Below are positions 28,175-37,498 of a stretch of 64,000 nucleotides of DNA, piece after piece (position 1 is the stretch's first letter; the number at the start of each line of letters is the position of its first letter). Origin of the DNA: Bacteriovoracia bacterium (GTDB lineage: Bacteria; Bdellovibrionota; Bacteriovoracia; Bacteriovoracales; Bacteriovoracaceae); NCBI GenBank assembly GCA_030431635.1, contig JAUIIL010000006.1:62001-126000 (forward strand), in the 5' to 3' direction. The position numbers and the translations under genes were made by a program. The notes below the pieces were generated by a model. The model worked only from the letters and a program-made list of their open reading frames with translations. It did not search any database and was not told the origin of the DNA.

Positions 28175-28542
28175 GGGGGTGCACTGGTTTCGACAGGGCC
28201 CTTGAAAATTTGAGTGCGTGTCTGGGTTGGTCGCTGGGCCCAGTAAAAAGGCGACCGAACTATAATTGGTAATGAAAATTACGCTTTAGCTGCCTAATCT
28301 ATAGATTATTGCAACTAATGAGGGACCTACACCAATAACAAAAAGTAGGTAAAGAGCGTTGTGGGCCTCTCGGTAAAAGAAACCCTCTGGAGCTGTCGGT
28401 AGTCTCCACAAAAAAGCATCCGAGGTTTTGGTTGTTTTCACAAAAATAGCTTAAGGTGTTCATTCCTTTTAATGAACTACACACGTAGGACTCTCTTTGG
28501 ACGGGGTTTTGGACGCGAGTTCGATTCTCGCCACCTCCACCA
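28175..28542 (+). ncRNA. ssrA: Transfer-messenger RNA (tmRNA)
   Basis: The 5' end GGGGGTGCACTGGTTTCGAC and the 3' end with TTCGATTC T-loop and CCACCTCCACCA form the tRNA-like half. The acceptor stem pairs GGGGGTG with CACCTCC, leaving discriminator A and encoded CCA at 28540-28542. The tag reading frame at 28268-28297 gives GNENYALAA then TAA; the resume codon could be GGT or the preceding codon. It rescues stalled ribosomes and tags the product for proteolysis. A TATACT box at 28157-28162 is a plausible -10. Its 3' end is the integration site of the island that follows. Confidence 0.97.
28528..28542 (+). repeat. attL: 3' end of tmRNA, 15-bp direct repeat
   Basis: The 15 bases TCGCCACCTCCACCA end ssrA and recur exactly at 37484-37498. 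Sequences flanking the two copies differ, as expected for the ends of an integrated element. The tmRNA 3' end is a well-known integration target for site-specific recombinases. Confidence 0.85.
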
Positions 28543-28558
28543 TCGCAAAAATAAAAAC

Positions 28559-28580
28559 AGCTCCACACAGGGGCTTTTTT
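28559..28580 (+). terminator. Terminator downstream of ssrA
   Basis: AGCTCC (28559-28564) pairs with GGGGCT (28570-28575), with one G-U pair, around ACACA, followed by a run of T. It lies inside the island, immediately after the attL repeat, so the element supplies the tmRNA terminator. Confidence 0.7.
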
Positions 28581-28766
28581 TATTTCTATAATTTCAAATA
28601 GTTGATCCCATTCTGTAAATAGGACTTATTTTTCATGTCATTGGAAATCACCCAAAATAACAACCGTTGTAGTATTTTGTAGTAACTGGGTGTAATACTT
28701 TGAGATTTGTCATACTTAAAACTATACATGTAGTCAAAAAGTTTAAGGTGAGATAAAGTAGGGTTC

Positions 28767-29114
28767 ATGTCTATAAGAACAAAACAAGTAATTATGAGTA
28801 ATGAAGCAAAGGTCTTAAAGCTCTTCAGAGAGAGGGCCAGTCTTTCTATGAGAGAGGCAGGAGAAAAAATGGGAGTCTCGGGCTCTCTTATATCTCAGAT
28901 TGAAAATGGACGTGAAAATATTCCTAGAGGTGAGAAGCTTCAACGCTTTTTGGATTGTTATGGCGTAGGACTATCGACCTATAAAAAGCATGTTAAGGAG
29001 TATGAAGAGAGTCAGACGGATAAGGATATTGTGAAGTCATTAATAGACAAGGTGTCAGACAAGGATATGAAAACTTTAAGAGTCATAATAGAACATTTCA
29101 TAAGTGAAACTTGA
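28767..29114 (+). CDS. XRE-family helix-turn-helix regulator
   Basis: A 115-residue protein (106 if it starts at the ATG at 28794). The helix-turn-helix spans about residues 15-70: MREAGEKMGVSGSLISQIENGR is the recognition region of XRE/Cro-type repressors. A charged C-terminal tail follows. It is the first gene of the island after the tmRNA terminator, with about 185 bases of non-coding sequence upstream, and is probably the island regulator. A lone antitoxin-like role is also possible. Confidence 0.8.
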   Translation: MSIRTKQVIMSNEAKVLKLFRERASLSMREAGEKMGVSGSLISQIENGRENIPRGEKLQRFLDCYGVGLSTYKKHVKEYEESQTDKDIVKSLIDKVSDKDMKTLRVIIEHFISET

Positions 29115-29189
29115 AATCACATCTTGTGACTTCAAGATGGACTAAGAACAAAATAATCGTTACTGAAATGAGTTGAAATAAGGAAGACT

Positions 29190-30218
29190 ATGAAAACAGA
29201 TAAAAGTGAAATTATTCTTTATAATACAGATGATGGACAAGTTGAGCTGGAAATAAAACTTGACCATGAGGGGCAGACTATTTGGTTAACTCAAAGCCAG
29301 ATGGCAGAGCTTTTTGAAGTCAGTGTGAAGACTGTTAATGAGCATTTAAAAAATATTTACTTAGAAAACGAACTCAATGAAAAAGCAACTATCCGGAATT
29401 TCCGGACAGTTCGACAAGAAGGGTCAAGAGATGTTGAAAGGGAGCTAAGTTACTATAATCTAAATGCTATTTTAGCAGTCGGTTACAGAGTTCGCTCAGT
29501 GCGAGGGACGCAATTTAGAAAATGGGCCACGAAGCAACTTAACGAATATCTGGTCAAAGGTTTTGTCATGAACGACAAGCGTTTGAAAAATCCAGGAGGA
29601 TGGGATTATTTTGATGAACTTCTTGAGCGTATTAAGGACATTAGGGCCTCTGAGAAAAGGTTTTATCAAAAGATTCGTGATCTTATTAAAGAAACGAGTG
29701 TGGACTACTCTAAAGAGCATCACCAAACAAAAGATTTTTTTTCGACAATCCAAAATAAGCTTCTATTTGCAGAGACTGGAAAAACGGCTGCAGAGTTAAT
29801 TATAGAAAGGGCCAATTCAAATAAGCCTAATATGGGTCTTACAAGTTTTGAAGGAAGTATCGTTCGTAAAAAAGATATTGAAGTTGCTAAAAATTATCTT
29901 AATGAAGGTGAAATTAAGAACCTCAATCGACTTGTAAATATGTTTTTAGACTTTGCTGAAGATAGGGCCAATCGAAGAAAAGAGATAACCTTAGCTGAAT
30001 GGATAGCGCAAACTGAAAAGTTCTTAGAGTTTAATGAAAGAGAACTATTAAAGGGGGCAGGTAAGAAATCTAGACAAGAAATGCTCTCTCATACAGAAGA
30101 GCAATATGAGGTATACAAGTTAAACAGAAAAAACTCAGAAAAAGATAAGGCTGAAGAAGAATATTTTGATGAGTTGGAGGAGGTATTAAAAACAATAGAA
30201 AAAAAGAAAAAAGAGTAG
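29190..30218 (+). CDS. RhuM family protein
   Basis: A 342-residue RhuM-type protein. The N-terminal domain has WLTQSQMAELFEVSVKTVN, an HTH-like segment, then RTVRQEGSRDVERELSYYN and VRSVRGTQFRKWA, all hallmarks of the family. The C-terminal half is helical and ends in a lysine/glutamate-rich tail. RhuM was named as a Salmonella pathogenicity-island protein and is common on mobile elements and in defence islands; biochemical function is not established. AAGGAAG precedes the ATG. Confidence 0.9.
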   Translation: MKTDKSEIILYNTDDGQVELEIKLDHEGQTIWLTQSQMAELFEVSVKTVNEHLKNIYLENELNEKATIRNFRTVRQEGSRDVERELSYYNLNAILAVGYRVRSVRGTQFRKWATKQLNEYLVKGFVMNDKRLKNPGGWDYFDELLERIKDIRASEKRFYQKIRDLIKETSVDYSKEHHQTKDFFSTIQNKLLFAETGKTAAELIIERANSNKPNMGLTSFEGSIVRKKDIEVAKNYLNEGEIKNLNRLVNMFLDFAEDRANRRKEITLAEWIAQTEKFLEFNERELLKGAGKKSRQEMLSHTEEQYEVYKLNRKNSEKDKAEEEYFDELEEVLKTIEKKKKE

Positions 30219-30351
30219 CGTTATTGAAACATTAAATAGACTTGGTATTCTACTCATTTTTGTATCAATAGCTTCTTTATTAGAAGACATTTCTTTTTTT
30301 ACAGATTTACTTTCAAATTTCAGATTTCAATATTTATGGCTTTCTCTATTA

Positions 30352-31134
30352 TTGTTTTTAATAAATGTTATCCGTAAAAAGCATTTCTATGGAAGTGCTT
30401 ATCTTATTGTATGCCTTATCAACTTAAGTCTGATTTATCCAACATGGACGAATATTCATAGAATTGAGATTCCTGACATCAAAGTTTATTACGCAAATAT
30501 TTTATCTTCAAATAGAGAATACCTAAAAATAAAAGAGAGTATTAAGAACGAGAATCCAGATATTATTGTTTTACAAGAAGTGAATCAAAGTTGGGTAGAA
30601 AATCTTAATTTCCTCACTGATGGTTATAAATATAAAATTCTACTTCCAAGAGAAGACAACTTTGGCATGGCCATATTCTCTAAAGAGAAAATTCTTAGTG
30701 AGCAAATTCTAATAGGTAAAGCTGAAGTTGAGTCGATTTTGTTTGAAGTGAGCTTTAAAGGTAGAAAATTAAGTATTCTTTCAACCCATCCAGTTCCTCC
30801 CATAACACTAGAGTATTGGGATTTAAGAAATAATCAATACATTGAGGTAGCAGAGTATTTGAATAGTATTGAGGGAGATAAAGTTTTAATAGGGGACTTT
30901 AATACAACTCCATGGTCACATTATCTGGGGGAAATGGCCCAAAAGACAAACTTGGAACCAGTTAATGTTTTTGAAGATACTTGGAATAGTTTTTTTCCTA
31001 TAGGTATGCGTATTAGGCTAGATCATGCTTTTATTTCAAAAAACTTTCAAGGGGAATTAAAAGTATTAAATGAAGTGGGTTCAGATCACCTGCCTATGCT
31101 ATTAAATTTAAAATATAAAGGAAGTTCAATATGA
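30352..31134 (+). CDS. Endonuclease/exonuclease/phosphatase family protein with membrane N-terminus
   Basis: A 260-residue EEP-fold protein. Catalytic motifs: LQEVN (Glu), STHPVPP (His), GDFNTTPW (Asp/Asn) and GSDHLPM (Asp/His), all intact. These enzymes cleave phosphodiester bonds in nucleic acids, inositides or sphingolipids. Hydrophobic N-terminal helices suggest membrane attachment with the catalytic domain outside the cytoplasm. The TTG at 30352 is a poor start: the same frame is open back to 30199 and reads as two more hydrophobic helices, but contains no ATG, GTG or TTG, so the true start may be a rare codon (ATT near 30223) or may be lost. Coupled by ATGA to the next gene. Confidence 0.82.
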   Translation: MFLINVIRKKHFYGSAYLIVCLINLSLIYPTWTNIHRIEIPDIKVYYANILSSNREYLKIKESIKNENPDIIVLQEVNQSWVENLNFLTDGYKYKILLPREDNFGMAIFSKEKILSEQILIGKAEVESILFEVSFKGRKLSILSTHPVPPITLEYWDLRNNQYIEVAEYLNSIEGDKVLIGDFNTTPWSHYLGEMAQKTNLEPVNVFEDTWNSFFPIGMRIRLDHAFISKNFQGELKVLNEVGSDHLPMLLNLKYKGSSI

Positions 31135-31487
31135 AATGGCCTCTAGAACTAATGGAAGAAGCAAGAGATGAAGCTTATGAATATTTTGATAAAAATATAA
31201 GGCCATTGCCAAAAGATAAAGATGGTAAAATTGATTTCACTGCTTTTGGATTAGAAAATAATGATATAGATGCCTTTAGGCATGCTCATGTGAGTGGGGT
31301 GTTCGTGATTGAGTACAATGAGGTGGCTTCAGATTTTCTAGGTAGGATGAATGAATATAAAATTGGAGATTTGTATTCAAACTCTAAAGACTCAAGATCT
31401 CTGAATATGGATTTATGGAATAACCAAGTGGGACGTAAGTATGCTAAAAAAGTAAGTAATAGAAATGAGTTACTCAAGAGACAGTAG
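31131..31487 (+). CDS. Small DUF6973-like protein
   Basis: The 118-residue product contains DAFRHAHVSGVF and NMDLWNNQVGRKYA, which resemble the DAFRHAxW...MDLxNNxxGR pattern of the DUF6973 group found in phage, polymorphic-toxin and secreted proteins. In that group the His and Asn residues are thought to form an active or binding site; activity unknown. It overlaps the phosphatase-like gene by 4 bases, so the two are translated together and may act together. Confidence 0.6.
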   Translation: MKWPLELMEEARDEAYEYFDKNIRPLPKDKDGKIDFTAFGLENNDIDAFRHAHVSGVFVIEYNEVASDFLGRMNEYKIGDLYSNSKDSRSLNMDLWNNQVGRKYAKKVSNRNELLKRQ

Positions 31488-31599
31488 GTTAAGATAAATT
31501 ATATAGCACTATTTTCTTCTAGAACTATTTTTTATAAAAGAGTTTGATGAGTGAGACGATATGGATTAATAATATTAATTTAATTGGTATAGCTTTATA

Positions 31600-34500
31600 A
31601 TGACTCATTTAACTAATGCGACAAGGCTTTGGATCTATCAAAATTTTAAAAAATTTATAGGTAATGATCAGTATTTCAAAGCATTTAATTCTAATGTTTT
31701 GTTGTCAGTTCTAAAATATGTTCTTAGTGGTAAAGCAGACTTAAATTTGATCATAGCTGAAATGAAAGAGTTAGGGCTAGATAAAGATTTTAAGCTGTTT
31801 AGAAAAATCGATAAAACTACAAATAAGCCTCAATATTTCAAGTATCCAAATCTTGTTTTTCAAATGGAGTCTTTGATTGATTGCTGGCCAGAAATAATTG
31901 AATTAGAGAAAAAAATACGTGAAAATTATTATGAATATGAAGATACCAATTCAGCTCAAGCTTTGATCGATCCAGATGAATACAATGGCTATGAAAAAGA
32001 ATATATTAAAAGAGGGCTATACGGATTAAAGCCAAATATAAGAACTATCATTGGGCTTGATGAAAATGAAATTACATTGCATGGATATGAACTTTCTAAG
32101 ATAACATCGATCCGTTCTGATTTCTCATACGAGTACGATAGTTTTAAACATGAAACAAAAAGTAGTGTTCAGAATATTGCAAAAAATGAAAATAGCTTTG
32201 GTATCTTTTTTCAAACAGACATAGCCGCTTTCTATCACTCGATAACTCCTACAATTTTAAGAAAGTTTTTTTACAACAATTATCCGAAGTCAAAGAATAT
32301 AAGAAAATACTTAAGAGAGCTTGAAAAAAAGAAAGAAGATGAATTGCCAATTGGTTGGATATTAAGTGGAACCCTTGCCTATTTTGTCTTACTTAAATTT
32401 CATGAGCTTTTAAATAAAAAACTTAAGAGGCACCTAAATAAATCATTAAAAGATGAAAAATCTAATTTATCTGTACTTTCAGTAGGTATCACTTCTTATG
32501 TTGACGATTTTATTTTCGTTGTAAAAACAAATGAGACAGTAGTTGATGAAACTATTCTAGAGAACTTTGAAAAGCTAATCCTTGAAAAGTCCAATCAGAC
32601 ATTAAAGGAACTCCTAGGTAATGATTGTAAAGTAAGGTTCCATGATTTTAAGGCTCCAAAAAATAAAAAATTTACCATAACCCCTGAGTTTGCCACTTTA
32701 CTTGATAGTAACTTTCATGACTTTATGAACAATGCCTCAGCGTTAGGAGATGAAGCAGATTTACTAGATGATTTAATGGCTCCTTGTGAAAACGAAATGA
32801 TTCTTAATGAAAGAGCTCAGTTTGTAAAAAGTTTAAGGGCCTTGAAGAATAAGATAGAAGACGAAGAGGTAATTGATCCCGATAAATTTAAGAAAAATTT
32901 TGATAAAGTTCTATATAGATTAGATTCTGAGGGAGCCAGATATATTTTATCTGTAATGTCTTTACTGAAATCTTTTTTCAATAAACTAGAAAGCGAAGAG
33001 AAATTTACTGAGAATATGTACTTTCAGTTTATAAACCAAGTTTATGAGAAGTTGATACAAAATACGCTTTCACCTGAAATATTTGTTAGATTTTTTTTAA
33101 AAGCCTGGTCATTTATTCCCAAGCCTTATGACTCTAAATATACCTCTAAATATTTCGATATATTTAATAAGTGTAGAGAGGGGTATTTTAATTCAAGCGA
33201 CAATGGCTTTTCAGAAGCTGATAGAGAATACTTTGATCTTGTTTCGCAAGCGGTAAGAAGGGACCTCTTGATTCATTTCCCCAGTGACCCAAAAGGAAAT
33301 CCGAAACGAAAGCATAAAGGAAAACTTCCTTTCTATCAGGTTCATAAAATGTTTTGTGATACAATTTCAATTTTAGTAGGAAAATCAGATAGCAGTTTAA
33401 TATTAGAAGAATCAGATGTATTTACAGTTATAGAATCCGTAAAACACTATTTTTATGGGCTAGATGATCCTCTTGGTTTTAATTATCTTAAGTGTTTTGA
33501 AGATTTTTTTGTAAAAGTAAAAGAGAAAGATAAGAAAAGGTTTATTGAGAAATATGTAAACGAAAGTTTATATCATTTTATATCGATTATGAATAATAAT
33601 GATATAAATGCTCTTGTAGTTTTTTTAGAAAAGAACAATAAAAGCCATATGTCCGCATATAAAGAACTTAAACATCAAATCAAGCAAGCAGGTTTTATTG
33701 AAAATATAGCAACCTCTCATAGCAAGGAGAGATTTGATGTAATGATGAGTTATTTTTCTATGCTTGGAGAAGATGATGGAAAAAGTATTGATAATGAAAT
33801 AAAGAAAATCTCGCCTACCTTTTTAATCGTGCCATCAAAAAGTCAGTTTTTAAGAACTTACCTCTTTTTATGTCACCTGTTTCTATGCTCAACCGTAAGC
33901 GATTTGAGAAAAGTCATATTCTTTCAATTAACGAGGTTGGATTCATCTTTCTTTTTATCTTGGAAATCAAATATTCAGGGTTTCTCTCCTTTGTCACCTT
34001 ATATTGCCCGATTATTAAGAGGTATTTTAACTGTTGGGTATATAAAAAATTTTAGCATATTTAAATTTGTAACTAACGCTCTACTGGAACAAGAAAAATA
34101 TTATTATTATTCAAGTCCTGATTTTGATACTGACGGCATAGCAAAGGTTTCACTTGATGGTTTAGGCTTTAAAGGTAGTGGGAGGCTTGAAGAGTTAGAC
34201 CCAAAGAGAGTAATGAAAATTACTTTAGCACCTATTGGAATATGGGGGAAATCCTATGATTTTAAACGAGGTGGGAAGTTAAGAAAGGGGATTATTTATA
34301 ATATTAACAGAAGAATAGTTAGTGCTATAAATCATGCGATAAGGGTTAAGTCCAACCTTGTTATATTCCCTGAGTGTAGTATTCCTCAGGAAAACCTCAA
34401 TTATTATCTTAAGCTAGCAGGTGACAACGGCATTATTCTTATAGGAGGCTTGGAACACTCTTCGAATCGCTCTAATCAAGCTTGGAATTCAGCGATCGTA

Positions 34501-35073
34501 TCTATTCCTTGTAATGTGAAAGAGAATCCTTTTGGGAAAACTTATTGGCCTTTCATACAAAATAAAATATATCCTGCTGCAAAAGAAAGTTTTGAATTGA
34601 GAAATGCTGGTGGAAGTTTTGAATTTATTGGAGGAAAAGAATTAATAATTTTCGAATCAAATAAATGGAGAAACTTTTCTATTCTGACTTGTGCTGACTT
34701 TCTATCTTTAAAGCATTTATTTTTACTACAAGGTAGGATACAAAGTCTTTTTGTACCATCTTTAAATAAAGACTCAAGCACCTTTGAGCATAATTCTCAA
34801 ACGGCAATTAGGCAGTTATATTGCTATAGTATCATATGCAATAATTCTTTTTGGGGTAAAAGTTCTGTTTATGCTCCATATAGGAAATCATACGAACGAA
34901 CCATATTTTCTATCGAAGGGAAATCTACACCCAATTTTCATACAATTGAGATCAGCCCACAAGAATTTAATGAAGTTCAAGATAACGAAGCTGAAACCTG
35001 CTTTTTTGAAGATAAAGAAAAAGGCTTGAAAAAATATAAACAGTTGCCGCCAGGATGGAAAAAGATAAGTTAG
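31600..35073 (+). CDS. Reverse transcriptase-nitrilase fusion (DRT type 1 / UG1-like)
   Basis: A 1157-residue protein. An N-terminal reverse-transcriptase domain (about residues 60-370) shows TDIAAFYHSI with motif A Asp207, LPIGWILSGTLA (motif B-like) and SYVDDFIFVV with Y300-V-D-D303, so polymerase residues are intact. A long helical middle follows. The C-terminal 250 residues form a nitrilase fold: E925 (FPECSIP), K989 (QNKIYP) and C1031 (LTCADF) give the Glu-Lys-Cys triad. RT plus C-terminal nitrilase is the architecture of DRT type 1 (UG1), a known anti-phage system. How the nitrilase acts is not established. Only about 110 bases separate it from the previous gene, leaving little room for a dedicated template RNA. 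Ribosome-binding site is weak. Confidence 0.88.
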   Translation: MTHLTNATRLWIYQNFKKFIGNDQYFKAFNSNVLLSVLKYVLSGKADLNLIIAEMKELGLDKDFKLFRKIDKTTNKPQYFKYPNLVFQMESLIDCWPEIIELEKKIRENYYEYEDTNSAQALIDPDEYNGYEKEYIKRGLYGLKPNIRTIIGLDENEITLHGYELSKITSIRSDFSYEYDSFKHETKSSVQNIAKNENSFGIFFQTDIAAFYHSITPTILRKFFYNNYPKSKNIRKYLRELEKKKEDELPIGWILSGTLAYFVLLKFHELLNKKLKRHLNKSLKDEKSNLSVLSVGITSYVDDFIFVVKTNETVVDETILENFEKLILEKSNQTLKELLGNDCKVRFHDFKAPKNKKFTITPEFATLLDSNFHDFMNNASALGDEADLLDDLMAPCENEMILNERAQFVKSLRALKNKIEDEEVIDPDKFKKNFDKVLYRLDSEGARYILSVMSLLKSFFNKLESEEKFTENMYFQFINQVYEKLIQNTLSPEIFVRFFLKAWSFIPKPYDSKYTSKYFDIFNKCREGYFNSSDNGFSEADREYFDLVSQAVRRDLLIHFPSDPKGNPKRKHKGKLPFYQVHKMFCDTISILVGKSDSSLILEESDVFTVIESVKHYFYGLDDPLGFNYLKCFEDFFVKVKEKDKKRFIEKYVNESLYHFISIMNNNDINALVVFLEKNNKSHMSAYKELKHQIKQAGFIENIATSHSKERFDVMMSYFSMLGEDDGKSIDNEIKKISPTFLIVPSKSQFLRTYLFLCHLFLCSTVSDLRKVIFFQLTRLDSSFFLSWKSNIQGFSPLSPYIARLLRGILTVGYIKNFSIFKFVTNALLEQEKYYYYSSPDFDTDGIAKVSLDGLGFKGSGRLEELDPKRVMKITLAPIGIWGKSYDFKRGGKLRKGIIYNINRRIVSAINHAIRVKSNLVIFPECSIPQENLNYYLKLAGDNGIILIGGLEHSSNRSNQAWNSAIVSIPCNVKENPFGKTYWPFIQNKIYPAAKESFELRNAGGSFEFIGGKELIIFESNKWRNFSILTCADFLSLKHLFLLQGRIQSLFVPSLNKDSSTFEHNSQTAIRQLYCYSIICNNSFWGKSSVYAPYRKSYERTIFSIEGKSTPNFHTIEISPQEFNEVQDNEAETCFFEDKEKGLKKYKQLPPGWKKIS

Positions 35074-35130
35074 TTTTGACAGGTGCAACTCTTCTTTATT
35101 TTTCATAAGAAGTAAATAAGGAGCTATTTT

Positions 35131-36063
35131 ATGTCCAAGGAACTGTATGGGAAAATATTTCCAAACGCTTTTAGCGATGAAAAGGATTTAAGCAATAAGG
35201 ATTTTCAATTAGTGCATTATACTTCTGCAGAAGCTCTTGTAAGTATTTTAAGAAATAAGTCGTTTTGGCTACGGCCTACTTATAATATGAATGATTATAC
35301 TGAAGTAATTCATGGCTTAGACTTTTTAATAAGATCCTATAACAATGGAAGCGACTTTACTTTTAGGAAAACAATTAATTCAATATTCCCAAATAAAGGG
35401 GATGACCTAGAAAAATTTTTAAACGAAAACCTACATAATAATAAAAATGATATATTTGTGGGTTGTTTTTCTCAGCATAAGAAGGAGGAGGATCTATTCG
35501 GGCGCCTTTCTATGTGGAGAGCTTATGGTCGTGGGGCTGGTGTGGCATTAATTTTAAATAAAAACTTCTTTCAATTAGACTCAAGTGAAGTTTTATTCTT
35601 TTCAAAAGTCAAATATGATGATGAATCAATTTTTAAAAAAGAATTTGATCAACTGGTCGAGAATATCAAGAAGTATAAAGAGGATATAAGGAAGCTGGGG
35701 TTTGAAGGATTTGCGAGCATGATACTAGTATATTTTTTAATAAAGCTATCTTCTCAAAAACATCCTGGATTTAAAGAAGAGTTAGAATGGAGATTGATTC
35801 ATTTACCTCGAGTATTTCCCTTAAAGCATGTTTTAGAGTCAGTGCATATTATAAGTAATTTGCCACAGAGAGTTTACGAAATCGATTTTGTAAAATCTCC
35901 GTTTCCTGTTACACTTGACTCATTAATAAAGAGGGTTGTAATTGGTCCATGTAAAGATGGTCTTGCTGTTTATGACTCTATATTGATAGAAATGAGGAAA
36001 GCAGGGATTAGTGAACCATATAAAAAGATTGTAAACTCTACTATACCCTTGAGAATTGATTAA
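35131..36063 (+). CDS. DUF2971 family protein
   Basis: A 310-residue cytoplasmic protein with the DUF2971 hallmarks: HYTSAEALVSIL, FWLRPTYNMNDYTE, FVGCFSQHKKEEDL and SMWRAYGRGAGVAL. The family is common in phage and defence islands, and the fold (conserved HYT, N/D and W-x-Y-G) resembles ADP-ribosyltransferase or RES-like toxins, but activity is not established. AAGGAG sits close upstream. It follows the reverse transcriptase by 57 bases on the same strand and may be part of the same system. Confidence 0.82.
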   Translation: MSKELYGKIFPNAFSDEKDLSNKDFQLVHYTSAEALVSILRNKSFWLRPTYNMNDYTEVIHGLDFLIRSYNNGSDFTFRKTINSIFPNKGDDLEKFLNENLHNNKNDIFVGCFSQHKKEEDLFGRLSMWRAYGRGAGVALILNKNFFQLDSSEVLFFSKVKYDDESIFKKEFDQLVENIKKYKEDIRKLGFEGFASMILVYFLIKLSSQKHPGFKEELEWRLIHLPRVFPLKHVLESVHIISNLPQRVYEIDFVKSPFPVTLDSLIKRVVIGPCKDGLAVYDSILIEMRKAGISEPYKKIVNSTIPLRID

Positions 36064-36090
36064 CTGGATTAATAAATAGTTTGCCTTAGC

Positions 36091-37140
36091 ATGAGTTGTA
36101 TTCTATCCCGTGTAAGGCTTTTAATTAGAGAGGTTAATATCAATCCATTTTATTCTCGCAATTTTTTTACAAATGAATTTAATAGGGGAGCTGCTTATGA
36201 GGAAGGCTTTGCTCGATTGTTTGTTTATTTCATGCCTGGAAATAACAAACCAACTATTCAAATAATGTGTGATACTGATCCAAGTAAACTTATTGGATTT
36301 TATCTTCAGTTTCCATCTCTGGGTGAAAGTTCTTTTAAAATGGCGAGAAAGAAATTAGAAGCGATGATAAAAGGATCAACATTAGATAATATTTTAAGTT
36401 TTATTGAGGATAGAGTTTATTTTCATACTAATTTGCTAACTGGTAATGAGGTTAGAGAGTTTTTAGGCCAAATACCATGGGTACAAGATGGGATCCGTTC
36501 CGCAATGATGGATTTTTCAAATACTGAAAAGGGCATTCTTTTTAAGGCAATGTTTCATAAAGACTTTTTAACAGTTTCTGGGAAATGCAATTCAAGTGTA
36601 TTTTCTATAATTGGGAAAAAAGGTAAAAGCATAGGTTCTGCATTTGCATTTTGCTTTGAGCTTGGAACACATGGAATTTTAACTGCTAAGCATTGTCTTA
36701 CAAATATTAAGGGAGTTGTTAACTTGCAAACGGCTAGCGGAAAATTGTTTCAGTGTCATATTAAGAAGATTTTTAGTTCTAAAATAGATTTAGCACTTCT
36801 AGAGCCAGTTGGTGACATTCCTTTTAAGTATGGGTTCTCTTTAGGTGAATATGTTAAATGTGAAATTGGGGACAGAGTTTACTGTGCAGGTTATCCAAAT
36901 AAGTTGGGAATAAGTCCCACTATTTCTTTAGGGCATATTTCAAATACTAATGCTAAATATAAAAACGAACTTGAATTGTTACAGATTTCAGGACTTGCTA
37001 TTAATCCTGCTAATAGCGGAGGTCCAGTATTAAACTCAAATGAAGAAGTAATTGGTGTTTTAACTGGAAGAGGTTTGGGGAGTGACCACCTTCAAAATAT
37101 AGCTTTTTGTGAGCCAATCAGTAGAATACTAAACATGTAG
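36091..37140 (+). CDS. Trypsin-like serine protease with novel N-terminal domain
   Basis: A 349-residue protein. The C-terminal half is a chymotrypsin-fold peptidase with triad H201 (LTAKHCL), D233 (KIDLALL) and S309 (NPANSGGPV). There is no signal peptide, so the protease should act in the cytoplasm, which is unusual for S1 enzymes and typical of defence effectors. The first 170 residues match no family I recognise; they could be a sensing or adaptor domain. It starts 27 bases after the DUF2971 gene, pointing to a shared transcript with the reverse transcriptase. Confidence 0.82.
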   Translation: MSCILSRVRLLIREVNINPFYSRNFFTNEFNRGAAYEEGFARLFVYFMPGNNKPTIQIMCDTDPSKLIGFYLQFPSLGESSFKMARKKLEAMIKGSTLDNILSFIEDRVYFHTNLLTGNEVREFLGQIPWVQDGIRSAMMDFSNTEKGILFKAMFHKDFLTVSGKCNSSVFSIIGKKGKSIGSAFAFCFELGTHGILTAKHCLTNIKGVVNLQTASGKLFQCHIKKIFSSKIDLALLEPVGDIPFKYGFSLGEYVKCEIGDRVYCAGYPNKLGISPTISLGHISNTNAKYKNELELLQISGLAINPANSGGPVLNSNEEVIGVLTGRGLGSDHLQNIAFCEPISRILNM

Positions 37141-37164
37141 TTGTTTTTAATAGTGAGGTTTTAT

Positions 37165-37413
37165 ATGAAGATTGCTTTCCATATTTTTTTGATGTTTGTT
37201 TTAGTTAACTCTTGTGCATCTTCTAATAAGATAATTGGGCCAGATGGTTCTGAACATCAACTAATAACTTGTGAAGGAATACAATATTGCTATGAAGAAG
37301 CGACCAAAGTTTGTGGAGGAAAGTATAAAATTGTAAACTCAACTTCTAAAACTGAAGGGTATAACGGTATTACGTCTTCTGAAGAAAGCTTATTGGTTAA
37401 ATGTGTGAAGTAA
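37165..37413 (+). CDS. Small lipoprotein, function unknown
   Basis: An 82-residue protein with signal peptide and lipobox VNSC (Cys about residue 17). The mature part holds three more cysteines (TCEGIQYCYEEATKVC) that may form disulfides, and ends GYNGI...LVKCVK. The ATG at 37165, preceded by GTGAGG, is chosen over a TTG at 37141. It is the last gene before attR and is likely cargo. No function assigned. Confidence 0.65.
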   Translation: MKIAFHIFLMFVLVNSCASSNKIIGPDGSEHQLITCEGIQYCYEEATKVCGGKYKIVNSTSKTEGYNGITSSEESLLVKCVK

Positions 37414-37483
37414 TTTATAGATTGTAGTAATTTGTAGTGAACTTAATCTTTTGCTCGAGTAATATTAAGAAGTTATAACTACT

Positions 37484-37498
37484 TCGCCACCTCCACCA
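37484..37498 (+). repeat. attR: second copy of the tmRNA 3' end
   Basis: Exact 15-base copy of the ssrA 3' end (28528-28542), marking the right end of the island. Just before it lies a small palindrome AGTTATAACT (37471-37480) that could be part of a recombinase binding arm. Confidence 0.85.

Follow-up and report, generated by a model that had tools for sequence, protein, structure and literature searches.

The gene described here encodes a protein in which a reverse transcriptase (RT) is fused to a nitrilase, and the protein belongs to a separate, rare third lineage of the “class 3” UG/Abi-type RT-nitrilases. It lies in the window, which is the whole stretch of 64,000 nucleotides that was analysed and to which all coordinates given without a locus name refer. 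The placement of the window protein with the class 3 RT-nitrilases follows from its layout, its catalytic residues and its C-terminal lid. Judged from the sequence evidence and from what is known of characterized relatives, the gene is probably a single-gene RT-nitrilase of this third lineage that works most likely as DRT1 does, and it would best be read as a template-free, protein-primed abortive-infection system. What is known is the RT-nitrilase type of defence; what is new is a separate, uncharacterised branch belonging to it, most of whose members stand beside a DNA-trimming enzyme.

The mechanism of DRT1, published in 2026, does not settle what the nitrilase targets, how the adduct senses phage or how general the scheme is (PMC13275509). 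Members of the lineage with and without an exonuclease of their own allow one and the same enzyme to be compared in both natural states, and the setting of the window gene suggests that tmRNA islands in Bdellovibrionota may carry defence genes.

Gene structure and domain organization

The initial annotation had read the gene as an RT-nitrilase fusion with intact catalytic residues in a Bdellovibrionota-like genome, and each of these points is borne out; the residues that it had named, YVDD (at 300-303), E925, K989 and C1031, are correct. The fusion is one 1157-aa ORF in which the RT and the nitrilase are recognised both by sequence and by predicted fold, and the host falls in the same family grouping as 'Bdellovibrionales bacterium GWA2_49_15'. 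The gene is divided as follows.

31600..35073, + strand: RT-nitrilase gene, 1157 aa, a single uninterrupted ORF from ATG to TAG
31600..32799, + strand: N-terminal module and RT domain, residues 1-400 (invariant alignment columns, predicted model, Foldseek matches to Abi/DRT RTs)
32800..34149, + strand: all-helical middle region, residues about 401-850 (predicted secondary structure)
34180..34989, + strand: nitrilase domain, residues about 861-1130 (tetrad E925, K989, E996, C1031)
35038..35070, + strand: C-terminal tail KQLPPGWKKIS, residues 1147-1157 (K1147 and P1150 kept in all three RT-nitrilase lineages)

An RT fused to a nitrilase or a phosphohydrolase is what defines class 3 of the UG/Abi RTs, and the window protein has the first of these compositions. 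When 11 proteins of the three RT-nitrilase lineages (UG1, UG5 and the window lineage) are aligned, only about 25 columns are invariant, among them D207, YVDD 300-303 (with the RT aspartates D302 and D303), K354, E925, K989, E996, C1031, K1147 and P1150. Taking this alignment together with that of the relatives, the invariant positions of the N-terminal and RT part are R68-K69, G142, Y179, D207, LPIGW 249-253, YVDD 300-303 and K354. E996, the second catalytic glutamate, which completes the nitrilase tetrad, and the conserved tail K1147-Q-L-P-P-G-W had not been named in the initial annotation.

The E-K-E-C tetrad, set in a predicted nitrilase fold, indicates that the C-terminal part is a member of the nitrilase (carbon-nitrogen hydrolase) superfamily. 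The PADLOC model RTasNitrilase matches this part at E 1.5e-45, and Pfam CN_hydrolase matches it at E 0.006, under the family cut-off. The RT half gives weak matches to RT models (RT_VI, E 1e-11; Drt1a, E 1e-7), and Pfam RVT_1 has no match in the window's own genome at E 1e-6, so that standard annotation would overlook the RT. The middle region has no sequence match among the PADLOC models and does not align by profile to UG1 or UG5; judged by its position, it would correspond to DRT1's alpha-helical repeat domain.

The structural model used was computed from the 11-sequence alignment and is usable for the RT and nitrilase parts only; a model from a five-sequence alignment was poor (pLDDT 51). 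Confidence in the RT part (residues 1-365) is mostly pLDDT 70-90, except for residues 110-180, and is low also in the loop 370-404; in the nitrilase part (residues 871-1130) it is mostly 77-90, and in the helical middle it is low, mostly below 50 beyond residue 560. The nitrilase model superimposes on the best amidase and formamidase chains with Z 22-24 and an rmsd of 2.4-3 A over about 230 residues (Foldseek E 3e-8), in agreement with the structural identity first proposed for the C-terminal region. The RT model matches the structures of AbiP2, AbiA, UG15/DRT4 and DRT9 (Foldseek E 1e-7 to 4e-6), and the matches of a viral fold search are mostly generic polymerases. When the PDB is searched with a profile of the lineage, a single chain reaches E <= 0.01, namely DRT1 9yfd, at E 7e-9 and spanning RT and nitrilase; 9YFD is not among the matches of the fold search, whose library ends in April 2026, and the comparison of DRT1 with the window lineage is one of sequence.

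Relatives and phylogenetic placement

Full-length relatives occur in four further genomes of the phylum (L016, L017, L018 and L019), on Leptospira plasmids and on two viral contigs, all at 26-29% identity to the window protein. A profile search finds the lineage in 5 of 369 genomes of the phylum, distributed over five genera and two families. A scan of viral contigs with a single sequence gave no match, and a scan of the phylum for UG1, run without a positive control, found none. The best family model overall is phrog_28773 (E 1e-101), with two matched stretches, the better of them over the middle and the nitrilase.

In the RT tree a clade with support 100/99 unites the window protein with six relatives, and the UG1 clade (99/96) and the UG5 clade (99/98) both stand apart from it. 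A single clade comprising the lineage, UG1 and UG5 is not recovered in this tree, yet it is allowed (p = 0.40; 0.30 in the other tree), as is the grouping of the whole lineage with UG1. The lineage is also marked by particular residues. All seven members have S or N immediately ahead of YxDD, whereas R stands there in all 15 UG1 and UG5 proteins and both DRT3a proteins compared, so the RT chemistry could differ from that of UG1 and UG5. Two further marks are LPIGW, where UG1 and UG5 have LPQGL or LPIGL, and a C-terminal KQ[LT]PPxW. A separate observation concerns L062, an RT protein of 1572 aa from a different genome of the phylum; its length is UG10-like, and in one tree it joins the lineage weakly and on a long branch (80/87).

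The alternative that the window lineage is a deep branch of UG5 (UG5-nitrilase), and not a separate group, has several points in its favour. The best PADLOC model for the window protein is RT_UG5-nitrilase, at 152 bits; the nitrilase tree places the lineage closest to UG5 (85/81); in profile comparison the lineage matches UG5 (E 3e-30) more strongly than UG1 (E 4e-19); and the whole lineage as sister to UG5 is not rejected (p = 0.32). The RT half, however, has no UG5 match at E < 1, and a position of the window protein within the sampled UG5 is rejected (p = 4e-4). The members of the lineage score 136-174 bits on the UG5 model and 51-76 bits on the UG1 model, nearly all of it from the nitrilase, while UG5 proteins of E. 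coli and Sinorhizobium exceed 1000 bits, and the lineage has an exonuclease in place of the UG5 membrane partner. A deep UG5 branch is thus unlikely, and the separate third lineage is the preferred placement.

Neighbouring genes

A DEDDh exonuclease, consisting of an RNase_T domain and a C-terminal GFRW..K.W module with a weak match to DUF5710, adjoins the RT-nitrilase in four of six lineages, namely the Leptospira loci, L017, L018 and L019. It lies downstream, after gaps of about 12-25 bp, in the Leptospira loci and L017, and upstream in divergent orientation in L018 and L019. Its positions in the respective loci are as follows.

L012 11504-12217: DEDDh exonuclease
L017 11164-11865: DEDDh exonuclease
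L018 3367-4236: DEDDh exonuclease
L019 7658-8542: DEDDh exonuclease

No exonuclease adjoins the window copy, and the matches in the window genome are to generic DEDDh domains only, without the GFRW..K.W module. The L016 genome has a full-length copy elsewhere, away from its RT-nitrilase. The exonuclease also occurs alone (G059 C3; G212 C1 2376721), so its link to the RT-nitrilase is one of adjacency only. The members that adjoin it form one clade of the nitrilase tree (96/96), with the window protein and L016 outside, but in the RT tree L018 and L019 pair with the window protein and L016; since the two trees disagree, gain and loss of the exonuclease are both possible.

By a crude hydropathy measure, five of seven UG1 loci and two of the UG5 loci checked carry a small gene downstream whose product has a strongly hydrophobic segment. 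No such membrane partner stands beside the genes of the lineage, the window included; the PEGA-type gene that follows L018 is unrelated. The DRT1b membrane protein is found in about 18% of DRT1 loci (PMC13275509); it is absent next to the window gene, and UG1 membership does not require it.

The tmRNA island

The RT-nitrilase gene lies in an AT-rich island inserted at the tmRNA gene, with the following features.

28175..28542, + strand: tmRNA gene (ssrA), the attachment site of the island
28528..28542, + strand: left copy of the 15-bp repeat TCGCCACCTCCACCA, equal to the tmRNA 3' end
28543..37498, no strand: AT-rich genomic island of 8.96 kb, holding the RT-nitrilase
28767..29114, + strand: HTH_31/HTH_3 regulator, 115 aa
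29190..30218, + strand: RhuM family gene, a full-length match to the PADLOC candidate system PDC-S05, with the HTH regulator just upstream
30352..31134, + strand: endonuclease/exonuclease/phosphatase (EEP) family gene
31131..31487, + strand: DUF6973 gene
35131..36063, + strand: DUF2971 gene, beginning 57 bp past the RT-nitrilase
36091..37140, + strand: trypsin-like protease gene, after DUF2971
37484..37498, + strand: right copy of the 15-bp repeat, an exact match, and right end of the island

A tmRNA 3' end duplicated at the far end is what usually marks an element integrated at a tmRNA gene. The GC content is 30-33% over most of the island and 36-40% just upstream. The island also contains a small lipoprotein-like gene, and the N-terminal 150 or so amino acids of the trypsin-like protease have no family assignment. 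An empty site was not found in relatives, in which synteny is too diverged; MAPEG and DUF938, which flank the tmRNA and island in the window, stand side by side only in G129 (L180), in another orientation. A comparable setting is seen at L019 13582-13927, where the RT-nitrilase is again found close behind a tmRNA 3' end, at a distance of about 1.5 kb, with an imperfect copy of that end (3 mismatches in 18) 199 bp downstream.

A functional link of the RT-nitrilase to the DUF2971, trypsin, RhuM or EEP gene was considered and rejected: none of them adjoins any relative, and the island neighbours are therefore treated as passengers. The match of the trypsin gene to RT-Protease_XI, likewise set aside, covers the protease only.

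The RT-nitrilase could itself be a mere passenger of the island, decaying or unrelated to defence, with no role against phage, or a metabolic nitrilase. This would be in keeping with the lack of an integrase among the island ORFs and of the partner genes of relatives beside the window gene. Against it, the 1157-aa frame is intact, all catalytic and tail residues are kept at 26-29% identity, relatives are found on plasmids and viral contigs, and both sister groups defend against phage; a UG5 RT-nitrilase of E. coli, together with its 1TM partner, is one such case (PMC9122126). A passenger is accordingly very unlikely. The patchy spread over five genera, the plasmids, the viral contigs and the tmRNA island fit a mobile defence gene, and the reading as a defence-type gene is supported.

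It is highly improbable that the RT copies a defined RNA template, as a class 2 or retron-like enzyme with the nitrilase as a retron-type effector. There are 112 bp of non-coding DNA upstream of the gene, and the sole NCBIfam match is a weak one to the retron St85 RT (29 bits, cut-off 235), but the island holds no RNA family besides the tmRNA, and a retron or templated RT was rejected with no ncRNA in the island; a promoter scan gave results no better than shuffles. The initial annotation had found the template unclear, a concern that is explained by the finding that purified DRT1 and DRT5 need no template (PMC13275509).

C-terminal lid and priming residue

The C-terminal 19 residues of DRT1 are exchanged between protomers, with residues 1218-1221 covering the nitrilase pocket, and K1219A or A1223F does damage equal to deletion of the tail (PMC13275509). 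Counted from the C terminus (DRT1 has 1229 aa, and its close relative L022 1235 aa), K1219 and A1223 fall on K and A in the motif KTQPAG. At this position UG5 has sequences of the type KPLPEG and the window protein has KQLPPG, where K1147 aligns with K1219 and P takes the place of A at the 1223 position (K1147..P1150-P1151). The lid K is kept in all 21 full-length proteins compared and the P in 20 of them, one UG5 protein having S. This conservation is the strongest sign that shut-lid control may be common to the window lineage and DRT1.

The priming serine Ser402 is reported to be conserved in DRT1 only (PMC13275509). At the aligned place, where the alignment is uncertain, no S or T is conserved in the lineage; the low-confidence loop after the RT (residues 370-404) contains S, T or Y in every relative, none of them invariant. 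That the window protein is itself a diverged DRT type 1 (UG1), which is how the initial annotation had assigned it, has next to no probability: although the layout is shared, the Drt1a models match weakly (76 bits) and DRT1 is the only PDB relative of the lineage profile, a true UG1 protein reaches 1317-1890 bits on the same models, the RT tree separates the window lineage, the grouping of the window protein with UG1 is rejected (AU test, p = 1.7e-5; p = 9.6e-5 with other sampling), and the protein lacks both the R before YVDD and a Ser402 counterpart. UG1 membership is refuted by the RT phylogeny as sampled.

Proposed mechanism

Purified DRT1 and both forms of DRT5 synthesise DNA that needs no template and is linked to the protein (PMC13275509), a chemistry that the two neighbouring lineages, UG1 and UG5, therefore share. 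DRT1 forms quiescent filaments driven by DNA, acts by abortive infection, requires the T4 helicase Dda for triggering, and loses its defence wholly or in large part in the mutants D324N/D325N (RT), C1116A (nitrilase) and K1219A (tail) (PMC13275509).

By analogy, the RT of the window protein would synthesise short stretches of DNA, not fixed in sequence and with no RNA as template, as shown for DRT1 and DRT5 (PMC13275509), priming the synthesis on one of the protein's own hydroxyl side chains. The DNA adduct would drive the assembly of nitrilase-centred tetramers or filaments, a structure shown for DRT1, in which the conserved tail K1147-Q-L-P-P may reach over the nitrilase pocket of the neighbour and keep it ready but shut. 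Phage activity on single-stranded DNA, which for DRT1 is that of T4 Dda, would disturb the adduct or filament and free the nitrilase. The E925-K989-E996-C1031 nitrilase would then attack an essential amide or nitrile metabolite or make a toxic one, and growth would stop before phage release, as in the abortive infection by which DRT1 acts. Where an exonuclease adjoins the gene, as in most relatives, it would serve to trim the DNA adduct or to reset it; the window copy does without one. The unmatched Ser402, the S or N in place of R before YxDD, the unalignable middle domain and the absent membrane partner count against a DRT1-like mode of action.

A bolder version of the scheme is conceivable but rather doubtful. 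A dedicated DEDDh exonuclease, and not phage enzymes or a membrane protein, would set the length of the bound DNA and thereby hold or release the nitrilase, giving a system of a toxin, a self-made DNA antitoxin and a trimming enzyme. The window copy would be a streamlined form without the exonuclease, relying on phage nucleases or helicases alone and on a priming residue other than that of DRT1.

Comparison with known systems

AbiP2, AbiA, AbiK, DRT4 and DRT9 carry out protein-primed DNA synthesis (PMC13275509) and have an RT fold like that of the window protein; none has a nitrilase. The family phrog_28773 (1167 positions), the best family model for the window protein, is unannotated and, from its length, is probably the version carried by Leptospira viral contigs.

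The UG5 RT-nitrilase (DRT5) resembles the window protein as a single-chain fusion with the closest nitrilase domain and tail (K..P.GF/W) and the best PADLOC model. It differs in the score reached on that model (above 1000 bits) and in its RT clade, and the window protein is about 90-200 aa longer and has no membrane partner.

With DRT1/UG1 (9YFD) the window protein shares the order RT, helical region and nitrilase in one chain of similar length, usable as a single gene, together with the RT aspartates, the E-K-E-C tetrad and the C-terminal K..P lid. The RT-plus-nitrilase layout on which the assignment to DRT type 1 had been based stands, but the RT lies outside the UG1 clade. The window lineage differs further in having S or N for R before YxDD and LPIGW for LPQGL, in lacking a Ser402 match and a DRT1b-type membrane protein, and in the exonuclease beside most relatives. 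As a third independent lineage it separates the parts that RT-nitrilases share (the tetrad, the lid and the RT aspartates) from those that they do not (the priming serine, the membrane partner and the R before YxDD).
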